A stretch of 64,000 nucleotides of DNA, from positions 341,501-405,500 of the forward strand of contig JAPJBO010000085.1 in assembly GCA_030068145.1 (NCBI GenBank), read 5' to 3'. Below the pieces are notes generated by a model, which saw only the letters and a program-made list of their open reading frames with translations, was not told the origin of the DNA and did not search any database. This DNA is from Diplonema papillatum (lineage: Eukaryota > Euglenozoa > Diplonemea > Diplonemida > Diplonemidae). The position numbers and the translations under genes are program-made. Shown here one piece after another: positions 28,095 to 62,982 of the stretch. The first letter of the stretch is position 1; each line of letters begins with the position of its first letter.

Positions 28095-28695
28095 TCTTGA
28101 GCCGGCGGACTTCTTCTTCGTGACGGCCCGCACCTTCCGCGGGGGCTCTGCTCCCTTTGCGGCAGACTCGACGGTTCGACCCGCGGCCGGCGGCGGCGGG
28201 TCTGCGCCCGCCGACGAATCCGACTCGGAGCTGTCGTCCAAGGTCGCCCGGCCCTGCGTTTTCGAAGGGTGCCCCACTGCCACTGCCACTGCCACGTCCG
28301 CGGTCGGCGCCGCTCCTCGACCGTTGAGTGCGTGAGCCCCTCCGAAGAAAGGTCCATCACACTCGGCGCCGCTCCTGCGGGGGCTGGGGGGGGGCCTCCA
28401 CCTCTCTTTCCAGTCTCCTCCGGCGCCGCCGGGGCGCTTTTCCGCGTAGACCGCGCACGCTTGGTCCCGGACAGACCGAAGGGGGTGGGGACGGCGGCCG
28501 CGGCGCGGCGCCGGTCGTCGGACAGCGACGCGAGCTGCTGGTTGGTCGCCGCCAGCGACGCGGCCGCCGCGGCGTCGGGCCTTCGGACCAGCGTAGGGTC
28601 GCTCGCGCCGGATGACAGCACAATCGGCCCGCCGTTGGTCCACTTGGCCAGCTGCTTCAGCAGCTCGATGAAGGCCCGTCAGGTGGCGCGGCCAA
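28095..28695 (-). pseudogene. RPP30 3'-end copy (gene-end echo), frame-broken
   Basis: A same-strand copy of the last 650 or so bases of the RPP30 gene at 28867-29977, very similar over its whole length. Two deletions distinguish it. One removes 39 bp, in frame, at about 28578, so RRP joins AAAAAS directly. The other, about 11-13 bp at about 28318, shifts the frame and destroys the C-terminus. The copy ends in the middle of the gene at the codons for SFIELLK, so it has no 5' half. A family A fragment sits between it and the parent. Confidence 0.85.
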
Positions 28696-28734
28696 CTGTT
28701 GCGTACGGAGCTGGGACTCAACACTGCACGGGTC

Positions 28735-28812
28735 CCCCCGACACCCTTGTTTCGGTCCTTGAAGCCACGGACACAGAAGATGGACCATCATCAGCGCTGA
28801 ACCCCCCACAGT
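28735..28812 (+). repeat. Dispersed repeat family A, fragment
   Basis: TTTCGGTCCTTGAAGCCACG, GACACAGAAGATGGACCATC and ATCAGCGCTGAACC match the middle of family A. It lies in the 170-bp spacer between the RPP30 gene and its truncated copy. Confidence 0.65.
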
Positions 28813-28866
28813 GTCGTGTAGACAGGCAGTCTGGGTTGTCTGTCTGGTATATAGGGGAAGTCGGAG

Positions 28867-29977
28867 TCAGCGGGCCCTCTTGAGCCCGGCGGACTTCTTC
28901 TTCGTGACCGCCCGCACCTTCCGCGGGGGCTCTGCTCCCCTTGCGGCAGACTCGACGGTTCGCGCCGCGGCCGGCGGCGGCGGGTCTGCGCCCGCCGACG
29001 AATCCGACTCGGAGCTGTCGTCCAAGGTCGCCCGGCCCTGCGTTTTTGAAGGGTGCCCCACTGCCACTGCCACTGCCACGTCCGCGGTCGGTGCCGCTCC
29101 TGCGTATAAGTCGATCGTTGAGTGCGTGAGCCCCTCCGAAGAAAGGTCCATCACACTCGGCGCCGCTCCTGCGGGGGCTGGGGGGGGGCCTCCACCTCTC
29201 TTTCCAGTCTCCTCCGGCGCCGCCGGGGCGCTTTTCCGCGTAGACCGCGCACGCTTGGTCCCGGACAGACCGAAGGGGGTGGGGACGGCGGCCGCGGCGC
29301 GGCGCCGGTCGTCGGACAGCGACGAGAGCTGCTGGTTGGTCGCCGCCAGCGACGCGGCCGCCGCGGCGTACGGGAGTCCCGCGAGGCAGAGCAGGTTCGC
29401 GAGATCTTCGGGCCTTCGGACCAGCGTAGGGTCGCTCGCGCCGGATGACAGCACAATCCGCGCGCCGTTGGTCCACTTGGCCAGCTGCTTCAGCAGCTCG
29501 ATGAAGGACCGCCGGGCGGCGCGGCCGCTTTGGATGACGGGAGCAGTGACGACCTCAAATACGGGTTGGCGCCCTTTTTTGGCGGGCCGCAGCAGCGACA
29601 GGGCGCGAGCCGTGTGTTCGAGGCTGCCGCGGACGGTGGCGACGTTGATGGTGATGATGTCCGCCCAAGCCGTCGCCGCAGCGTCGGGCAAGTTGGCGTA
29701 ATCGTCCAGGGTCACGCCGACCAAGGTCCACGGGCCGTCGGCCTGCTTGTGGCTGGCCGCGGCGCCGAACTTCCCCTGCGCCTTCGCCTGCGCCAGGTCC
29801 GTGATCACCTGCAGCCGGCGCGGCGGGCCCTCAGCGCCCCCCGCCCGATCGTGCCCCCGTTGCTCCAGCCCGGCGACCGTCGTCACGATGGCAGCGCCGG
29901 CCCAGCCCATGCTGAGCGCTTCTTCGCGGGCTTCCGGGGTGAGTGTGTGCCATTCTATCATCCCACGGTCCCTTCCC
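28867..29977 (-). CDS. RPP30: RNase P/MRP protein subunit p30 (Rpp30/Rpp1 family)
   Basis: The family scaffolds nuclear RNase P and MRP, which process the tRNA 5' leader and pre-rRNA. The p30 signature is in the middle of the protein: a helix (SFIELLKQLAKWTNGAR), then IVLSSGASDPTLVRRPEDLANLLCLAGLPYA matching the conserved serine-serine-glycine/alanine loop, the R-P-x-D-x-x-N-L-x-x-L-x-G-L helix, and a following S..T.N segment. The N-terminal A/L-G-W-x-G-A-A-I strand-helix (LSMGWAGAAIVTTV) is also present. A basic, low-complexity tail of about 120 residues with KKK and KRAR motifs suggests nuclear localisation. The first ATG after an acceptor-like TTTTGTTTTCCAG is at 29961. The usual first beta-strand of the family is missing downstream of it, so a short 5' exon may exist. 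A partial copy lies downstream at 28095. Confidence 0.82.
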
Positions 29978-29980
29978 CTG
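29978..29980 (-). other. Splice acceptor (cis or spliced-leader) of RPP30
   Basis: The minus strand reads CACTGTTTTGTTTTCCAG, an ideal pyrimidine tract and AG, 16 nt before the ATG at 29961. Either a spliced leader joins here and translation starts at 29961, or an upstream exon supplies the missing N-terminal strand. Confidence 0.65.
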
Positions 29981-30089
29981 GAAAACAAAACAGTGTGCTT
30001 TTTTGCAAGTGGCAAAGGTCCCGGACAGCGGCACGTGTGTGCTCACAGTTTCACTGAGGAAGTCGATGCACCACGAAAGTCGATAAGAG

Positions 30090-35474: not shown

Positions 35475-35690
35475 CGGTGAAGCGTCCAGTCGTCGTCATC
35501 TGTGTACGACGGGAAGTGTGCCCTCCGCCAGCGCTGCCGCCGCGCCGGCAGCGCTGGCGTCGGGCGACGTGTGCAGCGGCGCACCGGACTTCCGGGGAAG
35601 CATGGCCATCATGCCCTCCCCATCATGCCCTCCCCATCATGCCCTCCTGGCCGGCAAATTCGCTCAAAGTCCTGTCGACCCTTCCCCTTT
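35475..35690 (-). pseudogene. 3'-end echo of the coiled-coil gene
   Basis: A same-strand, decayed copy of 35880-36075, the C-terminal coding part of the gene upstream. Matched blocks include GTCGTCATCTGTGTACGACG against GTCGTCGTCGGTGTACGACG, the GCCGCGCCGGCAGCGCTGGC block, TTCCGGGGAAGCATG and GGCCGGCAAATTCGC. A 15-bp unit, CATCATGCCCTCCCC, has expanded to three copies inside it (about 35608-35652). It cannot encode the parent's sequence in a continuous frame. Confidence 0.75.
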
Positions 35691-35831: not shown

Positions 35832-36797
35832 TCAGTAGTTCCGCCTCGAATTCGCCATTTGAAGCGTCCAAGGCGCGACTGCGCGAAGCTGCTCGTCGTC
35901 GTCGGTGTACGACGGCTGGGATGCGTAGCGGCCGGGGGGTGCGGAAGCGTAGCCGCCCGTCGCCGCGCCGGCGGCGCTGGCGCCGGGCGACGTGAGCGGC
36001 GGCGCGCAGTACTTCCGGGCGAGCATGACCATCATGTCCTCCTCGTGGCCGGCGAATTCGCGCAGGATGGCGTCGACCTCCGAGATCTTGGCCGGGTTGT
36101 GCACCGAGTAGAACTGCACCAGCTGCTGCCTGTACCGGTCCTGCGACCGCCCCACGCCACCACCACCGCCACTGGCGCCGGGCGGCGACCGCTGCCCGCC
36201 GAACAGCGGCGCGATCTGCGCGACGCGGCTCTGCCCGGCGGGGCTGCCGCCCAGCACCATCCCCGGCGTGCTGCCGTGGGCGTCGGGCAGGGCGCCGCCG
36301 CCGCTGGTTCCCGGGCGCTCGCCGCCGGCTATCTTCCGCGCGGTGCTCGATCGGTACTTCTCCGCCGGCATTTGGCCCGTCGTCCGCATGTGCTGCTGCT
36401 GCAGCTCTTTGTTGCGCTCCAGAGCGACCTCGAAGTCGTACGCGAGGTGGTGCAACTCTTCTTCACTCTGCTTCAGGTGCTCTTTGAGTTGTTTTATGTA
36501 GCTGTCTTGCTCCAGCGACGCTTGCTTCGAACGCAGGTTCTCCACCTGCGCCTGCGCAAGCTGGTTGCACAAGTTGGCGAGGGTCTCTTTCAGGCTGTTA
36601 ACCTCCTCTTGGAACTTCGTAATCTCCTGCTTGTACGCCTCCTTCTGCGCCTCCAGCTCCTTCTTCTTCAGGCGCTCGAACTCGACGTGGTCCTTGATCT
36701 CTTCGAAGTCGATGGCGACCTCAAACACGTTGTCGCAGTGGGGGCACGACGTGGCCGTAAATGTCGGTGCCGGTTGCAAACGGAGCTCGAGGGCATC
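35832..36797 (-). CDS. Coiled-coil protein with C-terminal FYxxxNPxKxxxVD motif
   Basis: The frame after the acceptor-like CGACAG (36798-36800) begins DALELRLQPAPTFT. It contains a C-x2-C pair (SCPHCDNVF), a long acidic-basic coiled coil (from about IDFEEIKDHVEFERL through KELQQQHMRTTG), a Gly/Pro/Ser-rich linker, and a C-terminal motif RQQLVQFYSVHNPAKISEV followed by DAILREFAGHEEDMMVMLARKY. That motif (aromatic FY, NPxK, VDxxL, G-x-EE, L-x-x-KY) is one I associate with kinetoplastid coiled-coil proteins, hence the euglenozoan suggestion. The ATG one base after the AG is in the wrong frame, and no in-frame ATG precedes the coiled coil, so a 5' exon must exist. Function is unknown. A cytoskeletal or flagellar role would be a guess. 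Confidence 0.75.
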   Translation of the reverse strand, partial: DALELRLQPAPTFTATSCPHCDNVFEVAIDFEEIKDHVEFERLKKKELEAQKEAYKQEITKFQEEVNSLKETLANLCNQLAQAQVENLRSKQASLEQDSYIKQLKEHLKQSEEELHHLAYDFEVALERNKELQQQHMRTTGQMPAEKYRSSTARKIAGGERPGTSGGGALPDAHGSTPGMVLGGSPAGQSRVAQIAPLFGGQRSPPGASGGGGGVGRSQDRYRQQLVQFYSVHNPAKISEVDAILREFAGHEEDMMVMLARKYCAPPLTSPGASAAGAATGGYASAPPGRYASQPSYTDDDEQLRAVAPWTLQMANSRRNY

Positions 36798-36907
36798 CTG
36801 TCGCGCGTTGGTTTTTTTCTCGCGTGGGTTTGAAAGTCTTAGCTTGACGGCAAGTGGGCAGCGCCCTGCAGAGCCCAGTACAAAGTCAGGCTTTGATAGG
36901 CCCGACA

Positions 36908-38030
36908 AGACTCAAGCGTGTCTCCGTAGGATCCGTAGTAAGATCCGATAAAACTCAAGTGTGTCATATATCGCTCCAATAAGCTTCAAGTGTGTTCTTC
37001 GCAGGATCCGATAAGACTGGGATGTGCTTTAGCAAGATCGTAATATCCGATAAAACAAGTGTGACATGGCTAGTTCCAATAAATTTTCAAGTGTGTTCGC
37101 ATAGGATCCGAGAAGACTCAAGTGAGCCTTCGTATAAGAACCGACAATAATTCACCCTGACAAGACTCACCCTGTGCCTTCGTCAGATCCGGTCTCATGC
37201 GTCGTGGAACACACGTTGAGACTCCTTGGTACAAAACAGGAAGCAGACCTGGGTGATCGGAAGTCCCTCCGTATCAGCGACTGAGAGAGTGCCGGCGGGC
37301 GCATAGGCATGTGGATCGCCCCGTAGACCAGAAGAAGGTGCGATAGGAGACCCCGGCCCCGCGGGAGGCCCGAGGCCTTTGGAGTCAATACCTCCCAAGC
37401 TCGCCCCCAGGCTGGGTGGACCCCGGCCAGGGGCCGCTTCCGACATTGATGCCCGGGAGGACCTGTTGCCCTCGGGGCGGGGGCTATATGGGTTCGGCTT
37501 TTTGTTCTTTTTTTACCCTTCCTTTAGCTTTTTTCTTCTTTTCTTCGCGCGTTGCCCTGTTGATGTACGGGTTCCCGGCGATTTGCAGCAGTCCTTACCT
37601 ACATTGTTCTGTCGGCCAGAGGCTTTTAGCCTAGGAGAGCTATTGCGGTTAAGTGCACGGCCCGATGCAAGAGAATGAGATCTCCCCTGTTTTTGCCATG
37701 CACATCCACAAGACACCCTACTACACGAAGAAAGTGCAGCTTTCCAGGATAGGTAACCCTGTCCCCGCGTGAAGCGTTTCAAGGGTCAACCCTTCCTTCA
37801 AAAAGAGACGACTGCATCATCCGGGGCCTGTGGACATGGTCAACAGGATCGTCAATGTGTCACCACTTCAGATCTCTGCATCCGGGTTGCGGACTGTTCA
37901 CGCATTCTCTTTCGGCAATCCTGCACGTCCGAGCAAGCTCGTCAGTGGCAGCTTTGAGGCGAGCAATTACACCTTGCCTTAGGACCGACTGACCCGGTGG
38001 GACTCACTTATATCCGGAAGTCAGGCCGTT
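36908..38030. other. Intergenic with short GC-rich local repeats
   Basis: From 36920 to 37180 the phrases AGGATCCG/AAGATCCG, ATAAGACTCAAG and CAAGTGTG recur at irregular 40-60-bp spacing, an imperfect tandem array of about five units. The rest has no supported gene. Confidence 0.5.
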
Positions 38031-49539: not shown

Positions 49540-49757
49540 CAGCTTGCGGGGCTTGGCCAACGAACCGAATGTGCTTGAACCACTTCGATGGACCCCGTCG
49601 AAGTGGGTTCTCAGCAGGGTCGGCCTGCAGGCACCAGTGGGCGGGATTAGGACGTGGTCCGGAAACCGGCACGAAAAGCGGCCTCGAAGTTAAAAACGCC
49701 CGTTTTTTGAACAACTTCCCGCCAATGCCACATTGCAGGACCTTCGCTTTCACTGGG
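49540..49757 (-). pseudogene. Beta-helix gene 3'-end echo, outer (older) copy
   Basis: Matches the inner copy and the parent but is strongly decayed: CAACGAACCGAATGTGCTTG, GAAGTGGGTTCTCAGCAGGG, TCGGCCTGCAGGCACCAGTG, and then the AACTTCCCGCCAATGCCA block and the GAGACCTTCGC-like block that also borders the inner copy. No frame of the parent survives. Confidence 0.65.
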
Positions 49758-50190
49758 CGCATGCAAATAAACCGAGAGCCAGTCGCCATACAGCTACGGC
49801 TGCCTCAGCTCGCGGACTTGGTCGAATCGAATGTGTTCGCCTCCGAGACGGGAAGCTCGGCCGCGGTGATGGCCTGCGGGGCGAGGCCGACGAAGTGGTT
49901 TTTGAGCAGGGTCGGCCGGCTGGCGTCGAGCACCAGGACGCCGCCCGCCGGCGGGTGGAACTCGAACGTGTTGCGGGAGATGGTGGGGCACGCCGCGTTA
50001 CGCGAGACGACGCAGCACGTCGAAATGCTCGAGAACGAGTTCCCGTCCAGCAAACAAACAAACCGGATGCCTTGTCCACGTACACCCCCGACTCGAACGT
50101 AGTCCGAAGATCTGGCACGGCAAAAAACTCCCGTTCTTCGAATAAGTTCCCGCCAATGCCAAATTGCAGGAGACCTTCGCCTTCACCGAG
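49758..50190 (-). pseudogene. Beta-helix gene 3'-end echo, inner (recent) copy
   Basis: 49758-50047 is the same as 50191-50480 apart from about one base. It covers 47 bp of 3' flank, the stop and the last 243 bp or so of the parent's coding region. Farther out it diverges (GTCCAGCAAACAAACAAACC in place of GTCGAGCAGCCCTGCC) and runs to the AACTTCCCGCCAATGCC-like junction that separates units. It is one period of about 433 bp in a tandem series outside the gene. Confidence 0.9.
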
Positions 50191-50237: not shown

Positions 50238-53200
50238 TCAGCTCGCGGACTTGGTCGAATCGAATGTGTTCGCCTCCGAGACGGGAAGCTCGGCCGCGGT
50301 GATGGCCTGCGGGGCGAGGCCGACGAAGTGGTTTTTGAGCAGGGTCGGCCGGCTGGCGTCGAGCACCAGGACGCCGCCCGCCGGCGGGTGGAACTCGAAC
50401 GTGTTGCGGGAGATGGTGGGGCACGCCGCGTTACGCGAGACGACGCAGCGCGTCGAAATGCTCGAGAACGAGTTCCCGTCGAGCAGCCCTGCCGCCTTGT
50501 CCGCGTACACGACGCCGAAGACGCCCAGCTCAAACGAGTTGTGCAGCAGGTGCGCGGCGCTGGTCCCCGAAAGGAACGCGTGGCGCTCGCCGTTCGACCG
50601 AAACGCGTTGTTCTTCACGACCGGCGCCGTCGCACGGTCGCCGACGCGGATCCCGCCGCCCTGGTTGTTCTCGATCCGGTTGCCGGACAACACCGGCGCC
50701 GCGCCGGCCTCGACGATGACGCCGACGCAGCCGTTGTCGCTGATTTCATTGTCCTCGGCGACCCCTTGGCAGCCGGCACCGAAGACCAACCCGCCGCCCC
50801 TGCTCGCGACGAACCGGTTGCCCTTGAGCAGCGGCGCGGTGCCCTTGCCCTCGACCACGACGAGCCCGCAGCCGCAGTCGGTCACCACGTTTCCGACCAG
50901 CAGCGACAGCGCCTCGCCCACGATCGATACGCCGACGCCGCGGGCGTGCGTGTTCGAGACCCGGCACGCCTCCACCAGCGCCGAGTTGCCGCCTGTCAAG
51001 CACAGCGCGGCCCCCACCGACCCGACGATGACGCAGTTTTCGACGCTCGCCAGCCGCGCTGCCACCTCGAGGACGCCCTGCTGCGTCTGCAGCCCGATGG
51101 CTGTCCCCATCTTCCCGCCGAGGACCGCCGACGACGACCCCGACTCCGACGGCAGGAACAGGTGCGACGGCGTGCGGGCTTCGCCGCCGCCGCTGCGCGG
51201 CGGCGCGTGGAACTTGTGCGTGATCGTGACGTTCGCGATCGAGCAAGCACCGGCGCCGGCGGCGAGGGTGACGACGGGGGGCACCGGCCACTGCGTCGCG
51301 AAGGCGGCGGCCGCGCCGCACGCGCTGCGCGCGGACTGCACGGCGGTGCTGGGGCGCACGTCGAAGACGGAGTGCCCGGCGGTTGCCGCCGACCCGGCTG
51401 CGGCGGACCACCGGGCGTACGCGCAGGCCAGGCAAGCGGCCGCGCCCGCCGCGGCCGGCGGCTCCTTCGCGTGCGGCGTGCACACCGCGGAGAGCGAAGA
51501 CGCGCTGCCGCACAGGAACTGCCGAAACGGCGTCCGCCGCCGCCGCGGCAACGCCGACGGCGCCTCGCACGCGGGGCACTGCCCGTACGCGGCGGGACAC
51601 AGCACCACCGAGCCGGCCGGGCCTTCGCCCTCCAACCGAACGGGCTTCCACACGCGGATGTCCTCATAATACACGCCGGGGAGGATGCTTATGACAGAAC
51701 CCGGTGAGGCTGCGTCGATGGCCTGCTGGATGCTCTGATAGGACGGGACCCCCCCTTCGCCCGACGAAAGAGACCCCGGACAACCAGGGGCCACAGGGCT
51801 GACGGTCGAGGCGGCGGTTTGGTTGGGGAGAGGTGTGGACTGCGGGTCGGATTCGATGCGCTGCGCGCGGATGACGGCGGGGGAGGGGGCGGAGGGGGTG
51901 GGATAAGTGGGGGCGTCGTCGTCGTTCCAGGAAGGCGACAGGCGGCAGGCTTGCTCGGAGGTCTCGTGCGTTGTGGTCGCCTGGCTGCTGACGTCGTCGG
52001 TCGACACGGCAGTGGTCACCGCGCTGTTCACCGTCGCGCACTCCGAGATCCCGCCGGACGCAGACGACTCACAGACGCCCTCCGGCTCCCTTCTGAACGC
52101 GTCATCCTCCGCCCATTCCACCGCCTTCCGGGCCTCCTCCTCCCCTCGGCCCGCTTCACCCTCGGCGGCGGCTGGCGGGTCTGCGACGCGTGCGGGCTCG
52201 CCCTTCCGCGCCTTCCTGTGCTTCGCGAGCGGCGCCGCGTCCTTTTTCTGCCGCCCCGCCTTCGCCGGCTTTTTGGCGGCGGCCGCCGCCTGCTTCCTGT
52301 TGCCGAGATCCGGCTGCGGGGGCTCCGGGTAGGCTTCGGGGGGTGGTGTCGGGGCGGCGGCGGCGGTGGAGAGCTCGCAGGCGACGAGCTCCGCTTCGGC
52401 GCGGCCGGCAGCGTCGCACCACGAGTCGACTGCGGTGGTGCGGATCTCGGCCCGCTGGAACGGGTGCCGCGACAGGGCGAGGTCCGTCTCCGGGAGCCGC
52501 GGGTCCTCCGCGGGCGGCGGCGCTGCGTCCTTTTTCTGCCGCTCTGCCTTCACCGGCTTTTCGGCGGCGGCCGCCGCCGCCGGCTGCGGGGGCTCCGGGT
52601 GGGCGGCGGCGGCCGCCGCCGCGGCGGTGGAGAGTTCGCGGGCGATGGCGGCCTTGCGCTGGGTGACGCGCTCAGCTTCGGCGCGGCCGGCGGCGTCGCA
52701 CCAGGGGTCGACCGCAGCGTGGATCTCGGCCCGCTGGAAGGGGTACCGCAGCGTGAGGTCCGTCTTGAGGAGATGAGGGTCCCCGCCGCAGGCGGCGACC
52801 GCTTCCGCCGCCAGCGCCGCGGCCGCTGCCGGCGGCAGCCCGCCGCACGCCTTGAAGAAGGCAGCCAGCTCCCGCAGCGCGGCGCGGGCACACGCCTCGA
52901 CTTGCTCCGGCAGAGGCAGCGGGAGGTTCAGCGGGGGTGCCTTGCCGGGGGTTTGGCCGGAGGGGTGGGGATCGGAGCAGACCGGGGCTGCCGCCGCGGC
53001 GCGGTGGGTGCGCTCGGCGGGGCGGAGCACCACGATCGAGCTCGCCGGCTCGCGCAGTGCGGCGAACGCGTTGCAGCAGGAGCCGGCGTCGGCGGCGTCG
53101 CGTTTGAACCGGAACGACGACGCGACGCACGCGAAGCCGCCGGCAGCCGGGCCGTCGGCACTCCCCTTCGGGGTCACGGGCTCCCGCAGGCTGCTCGGCC

Positions 53201-55697
53201 CCCCACCCGTCGACTCAACCCCACGCAACGACGCGGAGAGGCCTCTCGGGCTCATCCGTTCTTGACTCGACGCTGGGGACGCTGACAGACCCCCTCCGCA
53301 CTCGAGAGAGAGCGACGGGCGGTCCACACCGAAGGACGACGGCAGGTCTCTGCAGCCTATCGAGAACGGGCCGTCAGCGGAGCAGCGGCGGGTTCCAGCA
53401 GAAGGACGTGCCGAGTCCTTGCACGATGGGGCGTCCGGGGCGGACCGCCGATCGGCGTGCTGCGCGCCGCTTCCGCTCGCTTCCGCCCGGCGCGCGGACG
53501 CCGAATGCCGGCGAACCTTCGCCGAGTTCCCCGGCTTCTTGCCGCCGCCCGCAGCGGGCTCGAGGCCGGCCGGATCCTCGGCCCCGCCGCCCCGCAGCGT
53601 CGCCGAGTGGCGCCGGCGCCGGGGGTTGCCGCCGCCGGGCGGGTCGTCGGCGAGCTTCCCGTCGGTGCCGACGCCACGCAGGGCGGTCGAGTGCCGGCGG
53701 GTCCCGGCCAGGCCGCGGGGGCTGCTCGCGGTGTCGTGGCCCCCGTCGAGGGCCGCGGGATCCCGCCGGCCGTGGAACGCGCCCGGCGGCAGGTCCGCTT
53801 GCGGCGCGGGCAGGCAGACCGTGCGCAGCGACCGGCCCGCGTGCCCCGCCAGCAGCGCGCGGCCGGAAGGGCTGTTCTCCGCCGACGCCGGCGACGCATC
53901 ATCGCGGCAACCGCAGCCGGCCGGCGGGAACCCGTCGCACTCGCAGTCGTTCGACGCGTCGATCCGGAGACGCTGCGACAGCTGCTGCGACTGCTGCTGG
54001 CGTTCCTGCGAGAACGCCTCGGCGGCCGCGGCGCGGTTGCAAGGCCTTGGCGACACGCAGACGGAGGGCACCGTGCTCGGCCTGGCCGGCTTCCGGGTCT
54101 GGGCTTCCGCGCTTTGCGCGGACTTGGCCCGGTCATCAGGCGGGGGGTATTCGCCCACGGCGTCGATACCGCAGGTTAGGCTCGACGGCCGGCTGCTTTT
54201 TGAGCACTCCTGCTGCTGCTGCTGCTGCTGCTGCGGAGCGTCGTCGGCGGCACGGCAGCTTCCTTTGGCGGATGGATCCGCGGCGGACTCCATCTCGCGG
54301 TGTGTCATCCCATCGACGTCGCAGGCGAGCTTGGGCGGGCTTGGCTTCACGTGTTTCACGGGCGCGCGGCCTGCGTTGTCCGCCAGCTGAACGGGTTGGC
54401 TGCCGTCGCGGTTTGCTCGCGCGGACTGCCGGTCCGTGTCGTCAGGGTCGCATGCCCTTTCGGGGCGATGCCCTGTTTTGGCGTGCTTCTTGTTGGGGGC
54501 GCGATCCATTCCGTTGCCGTCAAGCTGGACGGGTGAGCTGCCTTCACGATTTGCCCCGTCGGACTTGCCTTCCGTGCCATCGGTGCCGGCTGCACGTTGG
54601 GGGCGGTGGGTTGCTTTGGCGTGCTTCTTGGAGGAGGCGCGTTCGGCGTTGCCGTCAAGCTGAACGAGCTGGCCGCAGTCCCTGCTTGCTTTCGAGGGTT
54701 TCCCCTCCGTGTCGTCAGCGTCGCCTGCCCGTTGGGGGTGGCGGGTTGTTTTCGCGTGCTTCTTCGAGGCGCGACCCGCATCGCCTTCGAGCTGACCGGA
54801 TCGCTGGCTGCTTCCGCGGGTTGCCTTGTCGGACTTCCGCTCTGCGTCGGCGGCGTCGCCTGTCCGCTGGGGGTTGTGGTGCGTCTTTTTGCCGTGCTTC
54901 TTCGCGGCGCGGTCTGCGTCGCCTCCGGGTTGCGAGCTGCCTCCACGGGACTCCTCCTCGCCGCTTTCCTCAGCTCCGGCGTGCTTGCTTGAGTCGCGTC
55001 CAGGGCTGCCGACGCCGGGTTGCGCGGGTCTGCTGGAACCGCCGCACGCCTGCTCCGCCGCGGTGCGGGCGCTCTCCTTTTCGGCGGCTTCGCCCGGCTG
55101 CAAACCCGGGGCTGCTGCCTCGTCGGCGAACGTTGCCTCGGCGACAGGCGACCGCCGGCTCGCCCAGCACCACCCAGCGACCGCGGGGCTTCCCCCGGTG
55201 TGCGCGGTGCCGCCCCACGCGGCAACAGCGGGGGCGCCGGACGCCGGCGGGGCCCACAGCTGGTGCGAGCGGCCGCGGCGGAGAGCCCGCTCGACGGCCA
55301 GCCGGCAGACGCAGCCGGAGAGGGCGAGGATCGCCTTCCGCGCCTGCTCCTTTCGGTTTTTCCGTTTGAGCTGCCGGAGTGCCCGCGGGACCAAGGGGAC
55401 GGGTTCTTCTCCTTCGCCGGCCGGCGGGTCGACGACAGGGTCAGGCGTCGCCGTGGGCGACGTGAACGCCGGGTAGTGCGCGCCCGGCGCGGCGGCGGGG
55501 CTGCCAGGTATCGACAGCATCGTGCTGATCGAGCTGATTGACAGGTTCTCCTCCCCGTCCAGCATCTCCGCCCGCGAGCACGTCGACGCGGTCAGCTGCA
55601 ACGAGTCCTCGTCCACGTCGAACCGGCGCATGACGGGGGCCGACGCCTCCCGCCGGAGCGTGGCTTGGGGCACCCCGCCGCCGAAAAAAGTGTACAT
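50238..55697 (-). CDS. Large protein with C-terminal right-handed beta-helix (PbH1/CASH-like)
   Basis: 1819 residues from an ATG at 55697, with an acceptor-like CACTTCTCAG about 30 nt upstream. The first 60 residues are followed by a long disordered Arg/Ala/Pro-rich region. In it lie about five imperfect 40-residue repeats with KKHAKxxHxPQRA (about residues 264-455), a Gln run (about 490), and an internal duplication of an 85-residue block containing YPFQRAEI and WCDAAGRAEAE (about 930-1160). From about residue 1320 the sequence YQSIQQAIDAASPGSVISIL with PGVYYEDI, then many G-N-x-hydrophobic-x(N)-x-G turns (NHFVG, GNRIENN, GNSFSS), is typical of parallel beta-helix repeats found in carbohydrate-active and F-box-associated proteins. 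No catalytic motif was recognised, and the ligand is unknown. Partial tandem copies lie at both ends. Confidence 0.85.
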   Translation of the reverse strand: MYTFFGGGVPQATLRREASAPVMRRFDVDEDSLQLTASTCSRAEMLDGEENLSISSISTMLSIPGSPAAAPGAHYPAFTSPTATPDPVVDPPAGEGEEPVPLVPRALRQLKRKNRKEQARKAILALSGCVCRLAVERALRRGRSHQLWAPPASGAPAVAAWGGTAHTGGSPAVAGWCWASRRSPVAEATFADEAAAPGLQPGEAAEKESARTAAEQACGGSSRPAQPGVGSPGRDSSKHAGAEESGEEESRGGSSQPGGDADRAAKKHGKKTHHNPQRTGDAADAERKSDKATRGSSQRSGQLEGDAGRASKKHAKTTRHPQRAGDADDTEGKPSKASRDCGQLVQLDGNAERASSKKHAKATHRPQRAAGTDGTEGKSDGANREGSSPVQLDGNGMDRAPNKKHAKTGHRPERACDPDDTDRQSARANRDGSQPVQLADNAGRAPVKHVKPSPPKLACDVDGMTHREMESAADPSAKGSCRAADDAPQQQQQQQQECSKSSRPSSLTCGIDAVGEYPPPDDRAKSAQSAEAQTRKPARPSTVPSVCVSPRPCNRAAAAEAFSQERQQQSQQLSQRLRIDASNDCECDGFPPAGCGCRDDASPASAENSPSGRALLAGHAGRSLRTVCLPAPQADLPPGAFHGRRDPAALDGGHDTASSPRGLAGTRRHSTALRGVGTDGKLADDPPGGGNPRRRRHSATLRGGGAEDPAGLEPAAGGGKKPGNSAKVRRHSASARRAEASGSGAQHADRRSAPDAPSCKDSARPSAGTRRCSADGPFSIGCRDLPSSFGVDRPSLSLECGGGLSASPASSQERMSPRGLSASLRGVESTGGGPSSLREPVTPKGSADGPAAGGFACVASSFRFKRDAADAGSCCNAFAALREPASSIVVLRPAERTHRAAAAAPVCSDPHPSGQTPGKAPPLNLPLPLPEQVEACARAALRELAAFFKACGGLPPAAAAALAAEAVAACGGDPHLLKTDLTLRYPFQRAEIHAAVDPWCDAAGRAEAERVTQRKAAIARELSTAAAAAAAAHPEPPQPAAAAAAEKPVKAERQKKDAAPPPAEDPRLPETDLALSRHPFQRAEIRTTAVDSWCDAAGRAEAELVACELSTAAAAPTPPPEAYPEPPQPDLGNRKQAAAAAKKPAKAGRQKKDAAPLAKHRKARKGEPARVADPPAAAEGEAGRGEEEARKAVEWAEDDAFRREPEGVCESSASGGISECATVNSAVTTAVSTDDVSSQATTTHETSEQACRLSPSWNDDDAPTYPTPSAPSPAVIRAQRIESDPQSTPLPNQTAASTVSPVAPGCPGSLSSGEGGVPSYQSIQQAIDAASPGSVISILPGVYYEDIRVWKPVRLEGEGPAGSVVLCPAAYGQCPACEAPSALPRRRRTPFRQFLCGSASSLSAVCTPHAKEPPAAAGAAACLACAYARWSAAAGSAATAGHSVFDVRPSTAVQSARSACGAAAAFATQWPVPPVVTLAAGAGACSIANVTITHKFHAPPRSGGGEARTPSHLFLPSESGSSSAVLGGKMGTAIGLQTQQGVLEVAARLASVENCVIVGSVGAALCLTGGNSALVEACRVSNTHARGVGVSIVGEALSLLVGNVVTDCGCGLVVVEGKGTAPLLKGNRFVASRGGGLVFGAGCQGVAEDNEISDNGCVGVIVEAGAAPVLSGNRIENNQGGGIRVGDRATAPVVKNNAFRSNGERHAFLSGTSAAHLLHNSFELGVFGVVYADKAAGLLDGNSFSSISTRCVVSRNAACPTISRNTFEFHPPAGGVLVLDASRPTLLKNHFVGLAPQAITAAELPVSEANTFDSTKSAS

Positions 55698-55834: not shown

Positions 55835-56190
55835 TGGTATGTGCACGTTACTCCACGTGTAAAAAGGAACCGCAAGACTGAAGGGTCGTGCTGCTGCTCC
55901 AACATCTCCGCCCGCGAGCACGTCGACGCGGTCAGCTGCAACGAGTCCTCGTCCACGTCGAACCGGCGCATGACGTGCGCCGACGCCTCCCGCCGGAGCG
56001 TGGCTTGGGGCACCCCGCCGCCGAGAAAAGTCGTCGACGCGGTCAGCTGCAGCGAGTCCTCGTCCACGTCGAACCGGCGCATGACGGGCGCCGACGCCTC
56101 CCGCCGGAGCGTGGCTTGGGGCACCCCGCCGCCGAGAAAAGTGTACATTCCGTGCGGGGGGCTTCCGTTCTTCTGAGAAGAGCTCTAGTG
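55835..56190 (-). pseudogene. Beta-helix gene 5'-end echo, inner copy (twofold)
   Basis: Contains the first 40 or so codons of the parent twice in tandem on the minus strand: FLGGGVPQATLRREASAPVM and RRFDVDEDSLQLTAS, then FLGGGVPQATLRREASAHVM again. It opens with the same acceptor and start (CTTCCGTTCTTCTGAGAAG on the plus strand; ATG TAC at 56148) and ends in an unrelated frame after about 112 codons. The outer flank (AACCAACCGCAACGCTCGC, CGAAGCCATGCGCTTGC) repeats the flank of the parent at 55738-55800. Confidence 0.85.
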
Positions 56191-56281
56191 AAGAACCAAC
56201 CGCAACGCTCGCTTCACGAAGCCATGCGCTTGCTTCTTTACCCCTTCAACGTGAAGAGCTTACCCTGCTAGTGGGGTGATC

Positions 56282-56547
56282 AAGTACGGTGTAACTTTTG
56301 TATGTGCACGTTACTCCGGCACGAGTGGAAAGAAATTGCAAGGCTGAAGTGTCGTGCTGCTCCTGCTCATCAGCATCTCCGCCCGCGAGCACGTCGACGC
56401 AACCAGCTGTAGCGAGCCCTCGTCGACGCAACCAGCTGTGTAGCGAGCCCTTGTCCACGTCTACCCGGCGCCGACGGCCGATGCCTCCCGCCGCCGAGAA
56501 AAGTGTACATTTCGCGCGGTTATTTTCCCTTATTTTCTAGATGAGCC
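56282..56547 (-). pseudogene. Beta-helix gene 5'-end echo, outer copy
   Basis: A third, more decayed unit: GTATGTGCACGTTACTCCGG, GTGTCGTGCTGCTCC, CATCTCCGCCCGCGAGCACG, then a truncated N-terminal coding block and AAAAGTGTACATTTCGCGCG. Stops and deletions prevent a parent-like frame. Its outer flank is interrupted by family B at about 56548, and then resumes at about 56855 (CTTCACAAAGACATGCGC). Confidence 0.75.
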
Positions 56548-57385: not shown

Positions 57386-57489
57386 ATTGCCGCAGGGATA
57401 ACTGGCTTGCGGCCAAGCGGTCATGGCGGCGTTGATCCATCGGTGTCAGCTCGTCCTATTGCATGAGGCGGCGAGATGCAGGTAGACCG

Positions 57490-57860
57490 TGCATAACGAT
57501 GGATTCACCTTGGCAACCGAACGGCTGGTGTTAGTGTTGCTGCGTTCACTTTGGTAACGGCACGCCGACGATTCGAAAGGCTTGCTGAACACTAGTAGTT
57601 GTGCGAGTGGGGCGGTCGGACGGTTGCGGAGGCACCCAGGAAGACGGCAGCCCATTCCTATCCGCCCCTTGCAACGCAGCCCTTTCCTCGAAGAGCCAAG
57701 AAGCCACGCGAAGAACGAACGAGGGCGACTTCGTCGGAGCTTGTACAACGGGGCGCTCTTCTGCTGCGCCTCCAGCACGCGCGCATCACTTACCAATTGC
57801 GCAGCGGTTGCTTTTCGACGCATCGATGTCGGCTCTTTCGAATACTTGAAACGACGAGCG
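57490..57860 (-). pseudogene. Helix-rich gene 3'-end echo (two blocks, internal deletion)
   Basis: 57505-57670 matches 57873-58012, the stop and 3' flank of the parent (ACCTTGGCAACCGAACGGCT, GGTAACGGCACGCCGACGAT, GGAAGACGGCAG). 57690-57805 matches an internal coding block at 58330-58450 (GACTTCGTCGGAGC, TGCTGCGCCTCCAGCACGCG, CAATTGCGCAGCGG). The roughly 320 bp between these in the parent are missing from the copy. No intact frame remains. Confidence 0.75.
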
Positions 57861-57907
57861 ACACATGCTCGCAGGCAACCGAACGGCTGATGCTGGCGCT
57901 GTGACGT

Positions 57908-59295
57908 TTACCTTGGTAACGGCACGCCGGCAATTCGAAATGCTTGCCGGATACTGTGCGAGTGAGGAGGCCTGAGGTTGCCCGAGGCAGCTAGGAAGAC
58001 GGCAGGGGTCGACGTGGTGACGAGGGCCCGCGAGAACGCCGCCAGCAGCCGCGCCACGTCTCGCGCCGGCCAGAGCCGGCCGCCAGCCGCGCCGGCCGGG
58101 CTCACGAACGCCCTCCGCGCCGCGTCGAACAGCCGCTCCGTCGCCTCCGCCGCGCCCGCGTACGCCGCGCAGATCGCGGGCAGCACCTCCGCGCACCGCC
58201 GCCGCCCCGCCTCTTCGCAGGCGGCGGCCATCCGGTCGCCGCCCGGGCCTGTCCCACCCGCTCCCCGCGCCGCAGCCTTTTCCTCGAGCAGCCGCGCCGC
58301 CGTCGGCTCCAGGTCAGCCAGCACGAACCCGAGCCCGCGCAGCGAAGGCGAGCAGCAGAAGCGGGCGACGTCTTCGAGCGTGAAGGACGCCGCGCTCTCC
58401 CTCAGCACCTGCTGCGCTTCCAGCACGCACGCGTCGCTCGCCGACTGCGCTGCGGACAGCCGCAGGAGCAACTCGACTTCTCCCGGGGGGATGCGTCTGC
58501 CGTACATGCGGGCGTACGAGAGCACGAACCTCGAGCACACGAGCCCCGCGTCCTCTACGGAGCCGTCGGCGGGACGCCGGCCCACCCACTGCGCGAGGGC
58601 CCAGCCGAAGTGCAGCGCTTCGTCGCGCACGCCCCCACCTTCCGGCGGCCGGTCGACGCCACCGGGCCCGGCGCCGAAGGGACCGGCCCCGGCCACAGCC
58701 GGGGGGTGCCCGAGGCAGGTTTTCCCGCCGTCCCGCGCTTCGCGGGTCGGGTCGGTCGATTCCGCTGGGACGGAGGCGCGGCTCCCGCCGGGGAGGGAAT
58801 CCGACGTGTCGCTTGGCCGAGACGTCGAAGGGTGGCTGCGGGGAGTTGCAAACCGCCGGGAATCGGGAAGGGAAGGGGGCTGACCGTTTGACAGACTTGA
58901 CTCTGCTCCGGGGAGGGAATTCGACGTGTCGCTTGGACATTTCTGGAGTGATAGAGTCGCGGCGCTGGGAGGCGTTCCGGGTGCGCCAGCCGACGTCTTT
59001 GAAGATTCGTCGCTCGTCGAAGGGTGGCTGCAGGATGTTGCAAACGTCCGCGAACCAGGAAGGGAAGGGGGCTGACCGTTTGACAGGGAATCCGACGTGT
59101 CGCTTGGCCAGCTCTGGAATGGTAGAGTCGACGTCTTTGAAGAGTCGTCGTGGCTGCAGGGACTTGCAACCCGCCGGGAGTCGCGAAGGGAAGCGAGCTG
59201 ACCATTTGGCGGGCTCGTCGCCGCCGGTTCGGAGAACAACGCGCGGAAAATCGCGGGGCGCGCGGCCCGCAGGCCTCCGAGCAGCGCGGCGGGGA

Positions 59296-59332
<37 letters not shown>

Positions 59333-59890
59333 AGAGCACAGCTCCGCCAGCGCCGCGCCGGCCACCGCCACTTCGTGCGCCGTGCCGCACGGCGTTTTCG
59401 GCGGCGAAAACAGGTCGTCCACGGGGGGCGGGATGAGGAGGAGGGCGGCGACGCTGTTCGGGCACTGTGTGCTCCTAGCCACGTGGCGGAAGAGCGACGG
59501 GATGGAAATCGGGTGCTTTGGGCAAACAGCGCTGGTGCCGGGCAACTTGCGCAGGTACTCGATGTACCGGGTGAGCAGGTGCTGGGAGAGGGATCGGTCT
59601 GCGTGGAGGTCGATTTGCCCTGACAGGATGGGCCCCGCGTCTTCGGGGAAGACGTGCCTCGCCAGCCGGGCGACGTCGCCGCCGTCGAAGGCGCCCCGCA
59701 GCGCGCGCATGCCGGCGGCGGCGCGCGCCAGGTCGCGCCCCGCGACGCCGGCCCGCCCCTCCTCCAGCTCCGGCAGCAGCTGCTCGAAGGCTGCCCTCGC
59801 CTGCCGGCCGCCCCTCGTTCCTTCACGGGCCGCTTGGGCGATGAACCCGCACAGTGCCTGCACACGCGGGTTCGAGGCGCGGGGCCGCAT
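57908..59890 (-). CDS. Alanine-rich helical protein, family not recognised
   Basis: About 660 residues from the ATG at 59890, which follows an acceptor-like ACACAGCAG. The longer open frame upstream has no ATG. Amphipathic Ala/Leu/Arg helices are repeated throughout (e.g. RDLARAAAGMRALRGAFDGG, VARLARHVFPED, EDVARFCCSPSLRGLGFVLA). A poly-Gly run (residues about 200) and an imperfect S/T/P-rich repeated region follow (SWPSDTSDSLSNGQPPSLPG, repeated about three times). The helical pattern, with a conserved RDVARLLAAFSRAL at the end, resembles octotricopeptide or RAP/FAST-kinase-like organellar RNA-binding repeats. That is a guess from periodicity, not a motif match. Partial copies lie at both ends. 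Confidence 0.7.
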
Positions 59891-60004
59891 GCATTTTCTG
59901 CTGTGTTCCCTTTCCCCCGCAGGACGACGACCCCCTTGATGATAAGTTTGTTTGGAATGGAAAAAAATCAAAGTCGGGTACTGCTGCCGGATACACTGGT
60001 ACTG

Positions 60005-60305
60005 GTCGACTCTACTTTTCTGGAGAGAGAACGGTCTGCATGCGTGGGACTCGATATATCTCTGCTAGGCGTCCTCGGTCTGATAGGATGGACCCTGTGC
60101 CTTCGGGGAAGACGTGCCTCGCCAGCCGGGCGACGTCGCCGCCGTCGAAGGCGCCCGCAGCGCGCGCATGCCGGCGGCGGCGCGCGCCACGTCGCGCCCC
60201 GTGACGCCGGCCCGCCCCTCCTCCAACTCCGGCAGCAGCTGCTCGAAGGCTGACCTCGCCTGCCGGCCGCTGCTGCCGCCCCTCGAGCCTTCACGACGAG
60301 CACGA
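60005..60305 (-). pseudogene. Helix-rich gene 5'-end echo
   Basis: Same-strand copy of 59585-59830, including TCGGGGAAGACGTGCCTCGC, CCGTCGAAGGCGCC, CATGCCGGCGGCGGCGCGCG and CTCCGGCAGCAGCTGCTCG. Small indels shift the frame. It lies about 120 bp upstream of the parent's start. Confidence 0.8.
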
Positions 60306-61255
60306 TCACCTCAGGAGAATTCGGGTGGAGCTGGCTTCTACAACTAGTAATACTCCGGCAAAAGGTAGCACTCCTCAACTAGCCCGAACCAACAGGATCA
60401 AAGAATGTCAGTCACACCTTCCCGATTATTTTTACGAGAGGAGGTACAGCAACCTCTCGTGTGGTTGTCCTCAGCATGCCCGGACAACTCTGACGAAGAC
60501 GATCGACCTCCTTCAACAGAATCCAGCTGAGTCAATCCAGCTGACTCTACGGCACTGCGTGCCAGCTGTAACTTCAGCTTCATGACAAGCGATCTCGTTG
60601 TCACCATGGGAAGGCAGTAGCCCGAGATCAAAAGGATAGCGGTAGGCACAAGCAGGAGAACGGTGCGCGGGGGCAAGGGTAAGGGGGGGGGGGGAAGAGG
60701 CAAGGGGCGTGATAGAGTACAGGTACAGAACGTTTGCTTTTTTTTTTAGCGTTTTTGCTGTTCACGGGAACAGCAGCTGCGCAGGAGAATGGTTAAACGA
60801 GTCCAACCAAAAAACAGGGTCACTGCCGGCCCACAGAGGTTCGCCCCCTGCGCTATCACTTTCACCATCCTAGATGGCGCTGGTCGCCTGCGCATTACTA
60901 TACACTTATTTACCTTACTTACCTAACGTAGTCCAATACAGTTCACATCTTTTCATAAGCTGAGGTTGAATCGTTAACGAGTACCAAATAAGCCGGTCAA
61001 CCGCTAGAACCTCTGGAACTTCAAGCACGGTGCACCACGGTCTATTAGGTAGGGATGACACGGCTTACGAAGTAATCTTTGTGAGACTCGCTCGGATCAG
61101 GCTAGGAAGATACACCCCCACGACTCGTGATCGAACAGCATGCATTGCCGAACAAGCGGCATGCCAGCTCGATGTTTCTTTTTTGTCTGAACGGCTTCTT
61201 GCTTTAAGAAGCCGGTGGTTTAAGCCTCCCCTGCGGCAGTGCGGGGCCTCAGCAG
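60306..61255. other. Intergenic, no gene recognised
   Basis: Contains a G-run at about 60685-60695 and a T-run at about 60740. No repeat or gene was recognised. Confidence 0.45.
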
Positions 61256-61660
61256 TTGTCTTTCACTCACCAAAGTCTGCTGCCGCGTCACACGAACTTC
61301 ATCGGCACGCCTGCTGCCTTCTCCTTCTCTCGCCTTGCTTTGAGCTCTTCCACCGCTTTCGTGCTCATGGTGGGTCTGCCTTCATGTGGTTGTACGGGTT
61401 GCTGCCGTGGTGGATGCCCTTCACGAGTTCTTCAACGACGGGTCCTTCTTGCCTTTCGGCACCTTCTTCGCGTGGAAGTTGTGCAGCTTCGCGAAGAAGT
61501 CCTTGCCAGTACTCCAGTGCGGAATTCGGCGGGCGTCGGCGCCTCCGAGTCGTCGACGGGGCGGTCGAAGGAGAGCAGCAGGTTGCCCTGCTCGTCCTCC
61601 GCCGGTTCGTTGGTCAGCTTGTCGGGCACAAGCCCCCACAGCCACAGCAACTGCCAGTCG
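61256..61660 (-). pseudogene. 3'-end echo of the 61.7-kb gene
   Basis: A same-strand copy of about 61670-62110: GTCTGCTGCCGCGTCACACG, TTGCTTTGAGCTCTTCCACC, GGTTGTACGGGTTGCTGCCG, TCGAAGGAGAGCAGCAGG and GCTTGTCGGGCACAAG match in order. Deletions of about 18, 3 and 50 bp or so compared with the parent leave it frame-broken. Confidence 0.85.
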
Positions 61661-61695
61661 TCGGGTGTCTTTCATTCGCGAAGTCTGCCGCCGCG

Positions 61696-62982
61696 TCACA
61701 CGAATTTCATCGGCACGCCTGCTGCCTTCTCCTTTTCTCGCCTTGCTTTGAGCTCTTCCACCGCCTGCGTCTTCCGCGCTGTCGCGGCTTTCGTGCTCAT
61801 GGTAGGGTCCGCCTCCATGTGGTTGTACGGGTTGCTGCCGTGGTGGATGCCCTTCACGAGTTCCTTCAACGACGGGTCCTTCTTGCCCTTCGGCTCCTTC
61901 TTCGCGTGGAAGTTGTGCAGCTTCACGAAGAAGTCCTTTTCGGACCGCGTGTCGCTGTTGACCTTGTGCACGAGCGCCGGCGGCCAGTACTCCAGGTGCC
62001 GCGTGCGGATTTCGGCGGGCGCCGCGGCCTCCGAGTCGTCGACGGGGCGGTCGAAGGAGAGCAGCAGGTTGCCCTGCTCGTCCTCCACCGGTTCGTTGGT
62101 CAGCTTGTCGAGCACGATGACGGCGAGCCGCTTCTCCATCTGCAAAGCCTGCAGCCGGTGCTTCCGGTCCCTCGTCCACGCCAGCCCGCATTCTTCGAGG
62201 ATGTTCCGGTCCCTGTCCGGGTTCCGCGTCGACCGCACGTCGACTCGGTTCGCGCGGAAGGCCGCGATGGTGGCCACCCGGTGCTCCTTGTCGATCGCCC
62301 GCGCAACGCACAGCGCCCGCTTCTTGTCCTCGATGACCGCCGCGTGCTCGTACAGCTGCTGCCAGACCGGGGGGGGCGTCCCGGACGCTGCCGCAGACCC
62401 GCGGGCCGGCGAATACGACCGGCGCTGCGGCGACGACGCCGCCGAATTTGCCCGCGGCGTACAGGAGCGGCTGTTCGACTTCGAACGGGCGCGGGATCCG
62501 AGCAGGACGACGGGGATGTTGTGGGAGATGCGCGCCGTGTTCGCGAGGTCGGAGAGGAGCCACAACGACTGCGACAAGGGGGAGTGGCCGGGCCCGTCGT
62601 CACGGGGCAGGACTCCGGCGAAGCCGCCGGGATGGACTTTCAGCACGCGCAGCGGCGGGTGCTTGATTTCCACGGGCTGTTGTATGTCGAGAAGGACGAT
62701 CTTCGAGCACAGAGCCTCGCGGCCGTTGCAGGAGACCACCAGGTCCGGCGCCGACGCGGCCCGGTCGACGCTCGGGCGCAGGGTGAAGCAGAGCGGGTGC
62801 AGGTCGTGCCGGATGAAGTTCGTCAGCGGGATGTCGACGGTGATCGGGCCCCCCTGCGCCGCCCGTGGCGACCGGGACACGGCGCTCTCGCCGCTGTCGC
62901 GCCGGGCCCGCGAAACGACGTCTTCGAAGCCTTCGAGGCACTGCTCGTTCGGCGTCTTGCCATCGCTGATTCCCTCGGACAT
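61696..62982 (-). CDS. Conserved-looking protein of unknown family
   Basis: 428 residues from ATG at 62982, with acceptor-like GACAACAG (CAG at 62994-62996) 11 nt upstream and a second AG farther out. Residues 1-50 are polar and the middle carries a well-folded-looking alpha/beta stretch (ITVDIPLTNFIRHDLHPLCF, DLVVSCNGREALCSKIVLLD). A Ser/Arg-rich linker follows (SRARSKSNSRS). Then come a second alpha/beta stretch (QALQMEKRLAVIVLDKLTNE), a block LEYWPPALVHKVNSDTRSEK, and a Lys-rich tail ending PMKFV. No catalytic or binding motif was recognised. It is downstream-most of the same-strand gene set and is preceded by family C. Confidence 0.7.
   Translation of the reverse strand: MSEGISDGKTPNEQCLEGFEDVVSRARRDSGESAVSRSPRAAQGGPITVDIPLTNFIRHDLHPLCFTLRPSVDRAASAPDLVVSCNGREALCSKIVLLDIQQPVEIKHPPLRVLKVHPGGFAGVLPRDDGPGHSPLSQSLWLLSDLANTARISHNIPVVLLGSRARSKSNSRSCTPRANSAASSPQRRSYSPARGSAAASGTPPPVWQQLYEHAAVIEDKKRALCVARAIDKEHRVATIAAFRANRVDVRSTRNPDRDRNILEECGLAWTRDRKHRLQALQMEKRLAVIVLDKLTNEPVEDEQGNLLLSFDRPVDDSEAAAPAEIRTRHLEYWPPALVHKVNSDTRSEKDFFVKLHNFHAKKEPKGKKDPSLKELVKGIHHGSNPYNHMEADPTMSTKAATARKTQAVEELKARREKEKAAGVPMKFV

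Follow-up and report, generated by a model that had tools for sequence, protein, structure and literature searches.

The 64,000-nt window of the Diplonema papillatum genome analyzed here (C85, contig JAPJBO010000085.1, positions 341501-405500, in a 271-Mb assembly) contains seven genes, all of which lie on the minus strand according to a coding model and the open reading frames (ORFs). Self-BLAST of the window in combination with the coding model revealed that five of the seven genes are accompanied, just past an end, by same-strand partial copies of themselves, hereafter called echoes, and in no case by an inverted copy, as an initial annotation of this DNA had claimed. Every echo named in that annotation was recovered by the self-BLAST at or near its place in direct orientation, and the echo-bearing ends comprise two 5' ends and five 3' ends. 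The echo-bearing genes, their echoes and one intervening repeat are as follows.

28083..28693, minus strand: outer 3' echo of RPP30, a copy of the end of the coding sequence (CDS) (self-BLAST, pair alignment)
28717..28848, no strand assigned: dispersed repeat between RPP30 and its echo, filling 132 bp of the 175-bp gap
28867..30015, minus strand: RPP30 gene, RNase P subunit p30 (Pfam PF01876, E 1.2e-13)
35479..35619, minus strand: 3' echo of the coiled-coil gene (core 35538-35619, diverged extension 35479-35512)
35832..36908, minus strand: coiled-coil gene (ORF, coding model)
49492..49670, minus strand: oldest 3' echo of the beta-helix gene (score 39.5, shuffle maximum 22.1)
49623..50103, minus strand: second 3' echo of the beta-helix gene (core near-identical to the gene, flanks far less so; outer bounds approximate)
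50238..55697, minus strand: beta-helix gene, 1819 aa (Pfam PF13229, E 3.8e-23)
55898..56361, minus strand: 5' echoes of the beta-helix gene (copy of the N-terminal CDS, 111-bp tandem copy and copied upstream flank)
56371..56519, minus strand: oldest 5' echo of the beta-helix gene (self-BLAST; older copy near 56371-56493)
57512..57650, minus strand: 3' echo of the helix-rich gene (inner copy 57874-58005, 77% identity, self-BLAST)
57908..59971, minus strand: ORF of the helix-rich gene (ORF, coding model)
59972..60270, minus strand: 5' echo of the helix-rich gene (core 60080-60270 and a diverged gene-ward continuation; inner bound approximate)
61257..61629, minus strand: 3' echo of the 61.7-kb gene (self-BLAST, pair alignment)
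61696..62982, minus strand: ORF of the 61.7-kb gene, 428 aa (ORF, coding model)

Structure and decay of the echoes

At the 3' end of the beta-helix gene, positions 49692-50052 of the second echo pair with 50123-50485 at 96% identity in the self-BLAST; the sole indel falls into the 3' untranslated region (UTR), and the coding part is unbroken and nearly identical to the gene. The gap between the two copies holds a diverged continuation, which scored 16.5 against the gene interior (shuffle maximum 14.2), and the older echo that had been proposed at 49540 proved to be real, as the score of 49492-49670 against the gene demonstrates. On the 5' side the elements follow one another in the order gene CDS, ~200-bp upstream flank, CDS copy, 111-bp tandem copy, flank copy and older CDS copy. 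Here, 55558-55691 pairs with 55898-56031 at 97% identity (the 134-bp copy) and additionally with 56032-56142 (self-BLAST), and the upstream flank 55700-55895 matches 56151-56361. This copying in order of ~200 bp upstream of the gene, which scored 125 compared to a shuffle maximum of 30, makes an mRNA intermediate unlikely, and the copied flank is longer than the typical 5' UTR of ~70 bp in D. papillatum (PMC10161547). Divergence grows outward on both sides of the gene, with 96% identity in the second 3' copy and 130/160 plus deletions in the third, and with 97% followed by 78-88% among the 5' copies.

The RPP30 echo aligns between 28086 and 28693 to 28869-29526 at 90% identity, with 14 mismatches in 608 ungapped CDS columns, and lacks three pieces of 39, 10 and 1 bp that are present in the gene copy. 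It also lacks the 3' UTR, as the homology starts at the last codons. The repeat at 28717-28848 between echo and gene is dispersed, and the genome contains at least 39 further copies of it (the best 40 scored, including itself, of 556 candidates). Within the CDS, a segment of 34-67 bp (28317-28382 in the echo, ~29111-29176 in RPP30) matches many places in the genome, several of which are tandem arrays with a period of ~46 or 67-68 bp; beyond this segment the gene itself was the sole match of the echo among the best 40 of 456 candidates genome-wide. Since 68-bp arrays derived from mitochondrial chromosomes are mentioned for the D. papillatum genome (PMC10161547), the segment may represent a mitochondrial insert in nuclear coding sequence.

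In the coiled-coil gene, the echo core at 35538-35619 pairs with 35961-36042 at 87% identity (self-BLAST), and the extension at 35479-35512 scored 19.7 compared to shuffle maxima of 18.7 and 19.3. The 5' core of the helix-rich gene at 60080-60270 pairs with 59620-59811 at 95% identity (self-BLAST), and the adjoining gap scored 25.2 against the gene interior (shuffle maxima 18.9 and 21.0), with no homology detected in the alignment of the outer flank. A genome-wide search with this 5' unit returned two candidates, the gene and its own echo. The homology of the 3' gap of the same gene was below the shuffle maximum in one test and above it in two, varying with flank width and shuffles. The echo of the 61.7-kb gene (61257-61629) pairs with 61666-62115 at 79% identity, the differences being mostly indels, and is devoid of 44-, 24- and 8-bp pieces of the gene copy. 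Pfam searches with the ORFs of the helix-rich and the 61.7-kb gene gave no match. For RPP30 and the 61.7-kb gene, homology between gap and flank did not rise above that of shuffled sequence in two tests.

Local shuffles of all 26 loci (the window and the 25 genome stretches described below) yielded three direct and no inverted pairs at any distance, and 50 kb of Escherichia coli sequence, searched as five 10-kb pieces, gave zero pairs within 1 kb. With these controls nearly or entirely free of pairs, chance is excluded as a source of the echoes. In the window, 16 direct clusters compared to one inverted cluster were found within 1 kb, and repeats of this type are not confined to gene ends, since they also occur in intergenic sequence (for example 26744/26823, self-BLAST) and within genes (52229/52517 and 58823/59015). 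The stretches 52229-52797, 54374-54927 and 58823-59208 are diverged direct repeats within the beta-helix and helix-rich ORFs, that is, tolerated internal duplications.

UTR or flanking sequence is included in four of the seven echoes (beta-helix 3' and 5', helix-rich 3' and the 61.7-kb gene), and the well-aligning part is restricted to CDS in the RPP30, coiled-coil and helix-rich 5' echoes. The initial annotation had attributed frame-breaking indels to each echo. In the BLAST alignments such indels were present in the coding part of three of the six echoes examined (RPP30, helix-rich 5' and the 61.7-kb gene) and missing from the coiled-coil echo, the beta-helix 3' echo and the 134-bp beta-helix 5' copy. 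Overall, the echoes differ from their genes by 3-23% (BLAST). Mismatches between echo and gene in six window pairs, counted in BLAST alignments only, were evenly distributed over codon positions 1, 2 and 3 (20/16/17) and thus provided no indication of coding selection on the echo, and nine of ten indel runs in the same alignments were missing from the echo, not from the gene. These patterns fit a neutral decay of the outer copies by substitution and deletion.

Identity is also distributed unevenly along some pairs. A mosaic at P≤0.05 was detected in 6 of 30 pairs tested (1.5 expected), namely beta-helix 3', beta-helix 5', RPP30, helix-rich 5', a pair in sample locus L004 and an intergenic pair at 38609; in the beta-helix 3' pair, 258 columns are 100% identical and the rest 88.5%. 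Constraint acting on the gene copy alone would be expected to generate at most about a twofold difference in identity. Mosaics beyond this limit suggest that the likely cause is gene conversion, unequal exchange or a renewed duplication on top of older tandem copies.

Local direct repeats in a genome sample

The genome was sampled with 25 stretches of 10 kb chosen blind to their content, 20 of them at fixed coordinates of chosen contigs and five at random coordinates. Gene models came from a seven-state codon model trained without transcripts on the window and the first 20 stretches, and the helix-rich and UCH genes of the window were entered by hand from ORFs. Coding segments shorter than 300 nt or less than 400 nt from a locus end were dropped, as were pairs of fewer than 50 columns and, under two slightly different rules, tandem arrays. 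For the placement null the clusters were rotated against the coding map.

The mechanism behind the echoes had been proposed to act genome-wide, and the sample bears this out. Direct local clusters within 1 kb outnumbered inverted ones by 41 to 4, so that the two orientations are far from equal; at least one direct cluster was present in 17 of the 25 stretches, and the density amounts to approximately one direct local repeat cluster per 6 kb of the 250-kb sample. An echo was found on 10 of 32 sample coding segments (six at 5' ends and five at 3' ends) and none at the remaining 22. Compared to this sample rate, the five of seven echo-bearing genes in the window correspond to a binomial P of 0.034 and a Fisher P of 0.085.

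With respect to placement, 28 of the 41 clusters were non-coding, 10 lay at gene ends and three were intragenic, compared to rotation expectations of 28.6, 7.3 and 5.0, respectively. The number at gene ends in the whole unmasked sample was thus 10 versus 7.3±2.1 expected (P 0.14). When sequence common to other loci was removed, 31 clusters remained, comprising 19 non-coding, 10 gene-end and 2 internal ones, and the interior share was depleted (2/31, 0.065 versus 0.174 in the null, P 0.024). The loss of interior events alone shifts the remaining shares toward gene ends. Gene-end clusters (n=17) and non-coding clusters (n=34) did not differ in age, as judged from median identities of 86.6 and 85.2 (Mann-Whitney P 0.73). 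The duplication process is therefore not confined to gene ends, and a mild true preference for them is possible. The tie to transcription or processing boundaries that had been suggested for the echoes is not required, given that 28 of 41 clusters are non-coding and that 5' and 3' ends are about equally affected.

Origin of the echoes

In summary, the echoes most likely represent the decaying remnants of head-to-tail duplications that occur over short distances throughout the D. papillatum genome. According to this explanation, short head-to-tail duplications would arise in all parts of the genome, frequently where short homologies exist, by copying at the level of DNA and not via mRNA. Those falling within genes would tend to be purged, while those in non-coding DNA or straddling a gene end would survive and leave one intact gene. 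At a straddled gene end the outer copy would have to be same-strand and truncated inward, and it would then evolve neutrally and lose DNA. Dispersed repeats could land between the copies, and in some pairs gene conversion, unequal exchange or re-duplication would probably have restored the similarity of the core. Of these steps we infer the order of events, the purging, the gene conversion and the general beginning of spaced pairs as abutting tandems. The truncation of the echoes toward the gene interior, to which the initial annotation had drawn attention, was indeed seen, although the geometry compels such a shape, since a tandem duplication that straddles a gene end and leaves the gene whole necessarily yields an outer copy truncated toward the interior. 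A special mechanism acting at transcript ends is not required.

Tandem duplication by microhomology or template switching produces copies in direct orientation with short homology at the junction. The clusters studied here share both properties, although they are mostly aged and spaced and preserve original junctions in a minority. The 57 clusters of the window and the sample comprise 9 whose copies abut cleanly, 10 with an array-like overlap exceeding 60 bp and 38 that are spaced by at least 13 bp. The nine clean cluster-best pairs, together with one pair within the beta-helix 5' cluster, provide ten clean junctions, and the microhomology for which the initial annotation had suggested a test is present at 7 of them as a near-exact homology of 5-19 bp repeated at the start of the unit, the junction and the end. 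These overlaps are upper estimates, since BLAST extends through mismatches, and one of the homologies is of low complexity, consisting of six bases in a GC-rich coding stretch. At random breakpoints an exact match of at least 5 bp occurred in 0.74% of trials. The clean units measure 67-508 bp, with start-to-start spacings of up to ~900 bp. Template switching, the proposed example of a mechanism, fits the junction homology, and slippage or unequal exchange also fit it.

Several observations weigh against short-range tandem duplication as the explanation. The best copies are at least 13 bp apart in 38 of the 57 clusters, whereas plain tandem duplication is gapless, and 14 of these 38 spaced pairs show at least 92% BLAST identity. 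In a spaced pair that began as a tandem and then diverged, the gap should be similar to the flank of the other copy, and we tested for this similarity. In a free local alignment against block shuffles, covering all 38 spaced pairs, at least one side reached P≤0.05 in 22 (31 of 75 tests, with ~4 expected), and such likeness was seen in the beta-helix 3' and 5', helix-rich 3' and 5' and coiled-coil pairs and in sample locus L015. In the other 16 neither flank resembles the gap; these include RPP30, the 61.7-kb gene and three sample pairs of at least 92% identity (L012 2999, L023 291 and L017 3527). With a stricter alignment anchored at the copy edges and compared to plain shuffles, only 6 of 37 pairs reached P≤0.05 on a side, and ten follow-up comparisons of gaps were chosen after the results of this anchored test. 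Sequence found in other loci lies inside 13 of 35 gaps of at least 30 bp. Decay and insertion explain many gaps, and later deletion or insertion may account for those lacking likeness to a flank. Re-duplication instead of conversion could also yield the mosaic pattern. In addition, gene ends were hit in excess in several counts: in the first 20 stretches alone (9 versus 5.2 expected, P 0.038), in the masked sample (a share of 0.323 versus 0.199 in the null, P 0.038), in the window (7 versus 1.5 by rotation, P 0.002) and in sample and window pooled, both unmasked (17 versus 8.9, P 0.0035) and masked (17 of 43, P 0.0005), the window in the last three counts being a place picked by its reader. 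A rate above random placement, for which the initial annotation had suggested a test, is favored by the masked, first-20 and pooled counts and not by the whole unmasked sample, and the excesses leave room for a true gene-end preference.

The same excesses would be expected if duplication were tied to transcript ends, that is, to trans-splice or polyadenylation sites, for example through template switching at transcription-replication conflicts. We regard such a mechanism as quite improbable, since the excess at gene ends is not significant in the whole unmasked sample, most clusters lie in non-coding sequence, 5' and 3' ends are hit about equally (6 and 5 of 32) and the purging of interior copies would by itself yield part of the masked excess. 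In a templated insertion, the repair of a break close to a gene end would copy sequence from nearby and rejoin the ends, leaving the two copies spaced from the outset, and such insertions are expected to occur in either orientation. Their involvement in general is accordingly rather unlikely given the ratio of 41:4 between direct and inverted clusters, and the clean abutment of 9 clusters, the overlap of 10 by more than 60 bp and the resemblance of 22 of 38 gaps to a flank likewise speak against it. Nevertheless, templated insertion is kept as a rival, as it would accommodate the 38 spaced clusters and those pairs of 95-97% identity whose gaps lack homology, such as L012 2999 (95.5%, gap 51) and L023 291 (96.6%, gap 65).

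The contigs were built separately from Illumina (Celera Assembler) and PacBio (Canu) reads and then merged (PMC10161547), and contig overlaps left unmerged, or gaps poorly filled at the GC-rich edges of genes, would resemble direct repeats at such edges. That the echoes are assembly errors of this kind is nonetheless scarcely credible in view of their 3-23% divergence, the graded four-copy series at the beta-helix 5' end, the loss of DNA mainly from the outer copy and the homologies at clean junctions; moreover, there is not a single N in the window or in L001-L027, and one such array, with 71-96% identity, has PacBio support (PMC10161547). It is likewise very unlikely that selection maintains the echoes for a function, whether as decoys for trans-splicing, as regulatory elements of the 3' UTR or as alternative exons. 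With a published median 3' UTR length of ~800 bp in D. papillatum (PMC10161547), transcribed 3' UTR probably extends over the 3' echoes, and the beta-helix 3' echo has an uninterrupted coding part that hardly differs from the gene, both of which would suit a function. However, the differences are neutral with respect to codon position, DNA loss is one-sided and 22 of 32 sample coding segments have no echo at all. A source of antisense RNA, as had been speculated, is at odds with the orientation of the echoes, because the transcript of a gene would contain its same-strand echo as sense RNA. Neither a decoy nor an antisense role finds support in the sequences compared here.

Two further candidates were rejected. 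A processed retrocopy would contain mature mRNA only, but ~200 bp upstream of the beta-helix start were copied, and non-coding sequence accounts for 28 of the 41 clusters in the sample. Gene capture by a transposon is contradicted by the two echoes searched genome-wide, as the helix-rich 5' unit occurs only at the gene and its echo and the same holds for the RPP30 echo, apart from its 34-67-bp segment, among the best 40 of 456 candidates.

The phenomenon is already in print for this marine protist, and the window provides further examples. Under the title of its Figure 2 legend, 'Repeat-bounded gene structures', the D. papillatum genome paper describes terminal gene pieces, including UTR and CDS, that are repeated in tandem beside the gene at 5' or 3' ends as degenerate copies (PMC10161547). 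In the published example the terminal segment of one gene is repeated 13 times (12 in the text); the array is supported by PacBio reads, and RNA-Seq indicates its absence from the mature mRNA (PMC10161547). The window echoes match these structures in being adjacent, tandemly oriented and degenerate, with outward divergence judged at the beta-helix gene only, as each of the other echoes consists of one copy. Dozens of cases were found by inspection in that work, whose section on them contains no rate, orientation test, placement null or analysis of junctions and decay (PMC10161547). The present analysis adds a first estimate of the rate, a test of placement, the neutral pattern of the differences and the observation of mosaic cores, and hence the first rough numbers for a phenomenon described there by example. 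In DNA-mediated partial gene duplication, copies are likewise incomplete and their extent is set by the position of the breakpoints relative to the gene (reviewed in PMC3449122), whereas the units found here are mostly shorter than genes and occur at high local density. A unit shorter than a gene that touches one would usually catch an end or lie inside. Literature searches returned, among the matches listed, nothing closer than PMC10161547, which was also the only listed match to the phrase 'repeat-bounded gene'; in the available text of a 2025 paper on diplonemid introns (PMC12621601), 'direct repeat' appears once, in connection with noncanonical introns, and 'tandem' is absent.

These results suggest that ordinary local duplication, in combination with geometry and selection, is able to produce a conspicuous regularity at the ends of genes. 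An extended version of the explanation, in which short-range direct duplication at an unusually high rate is combined with a real preference for gene edges and with gene conversion that keeps the cores of outer copies alike, seems unlikely on present data. If true, new UTRs, first exons and intron material would continually originate from gene edges, which would help to explain the very long 3' UTRs. For annotation, outer copies that are open and in frame, such as the beta-helix 3' echo, may pass for exons or genes.

Other repeats in the window

Longer arrays occupy two regions of the window. At 21144-24014 a 27-bp unit is repeated 106 times with 99% identity, and since 27 is a multiple of three, the array is open for ~970-1010 codons in three frames. 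An 88-bp satellite with ~42 copies, also 99% identical, extends from 30603 to 34323. In the same genome, U2 genes occur in tandem arrays and a 5S gene adjoins the single copy examined, which matches the published description (PMC10161547).

A piece of eukaryotic 28S rRNA lies at 37614-38059 on the minus strand (139 bits), and a weak second match, below the gathering score, at 57397-57520; approximately 3600 scattered 28S pieces have been described in the D. papillatum genome (PMC10161547).

The family to which the repeat beside RPP30 belongs measures ~100-190 bp and has eight copies in the window, three of which lie within ~1 kb downstream of gene 3' ends. A second dispersed family of ~160-300 bp occurs in both orientations (self-BLAST). 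Their copies are located as follows.

~100-190-bp family: 1714-1903, 2183-2364, 6696-6839, 14496-14596, 16153-16325, 28717-28848, 35128-35242, 49193-49305
~160-300-bp family: 8190-8484, 18564-18768, 44634-44816, 57130-57384, 63047-63210

Finally, 190 bp at 13126-13315 recur with 100% identity and in direct orientation 26 kb away at 39686-39875, and this pair probably reflects a very recent dispersed copy.

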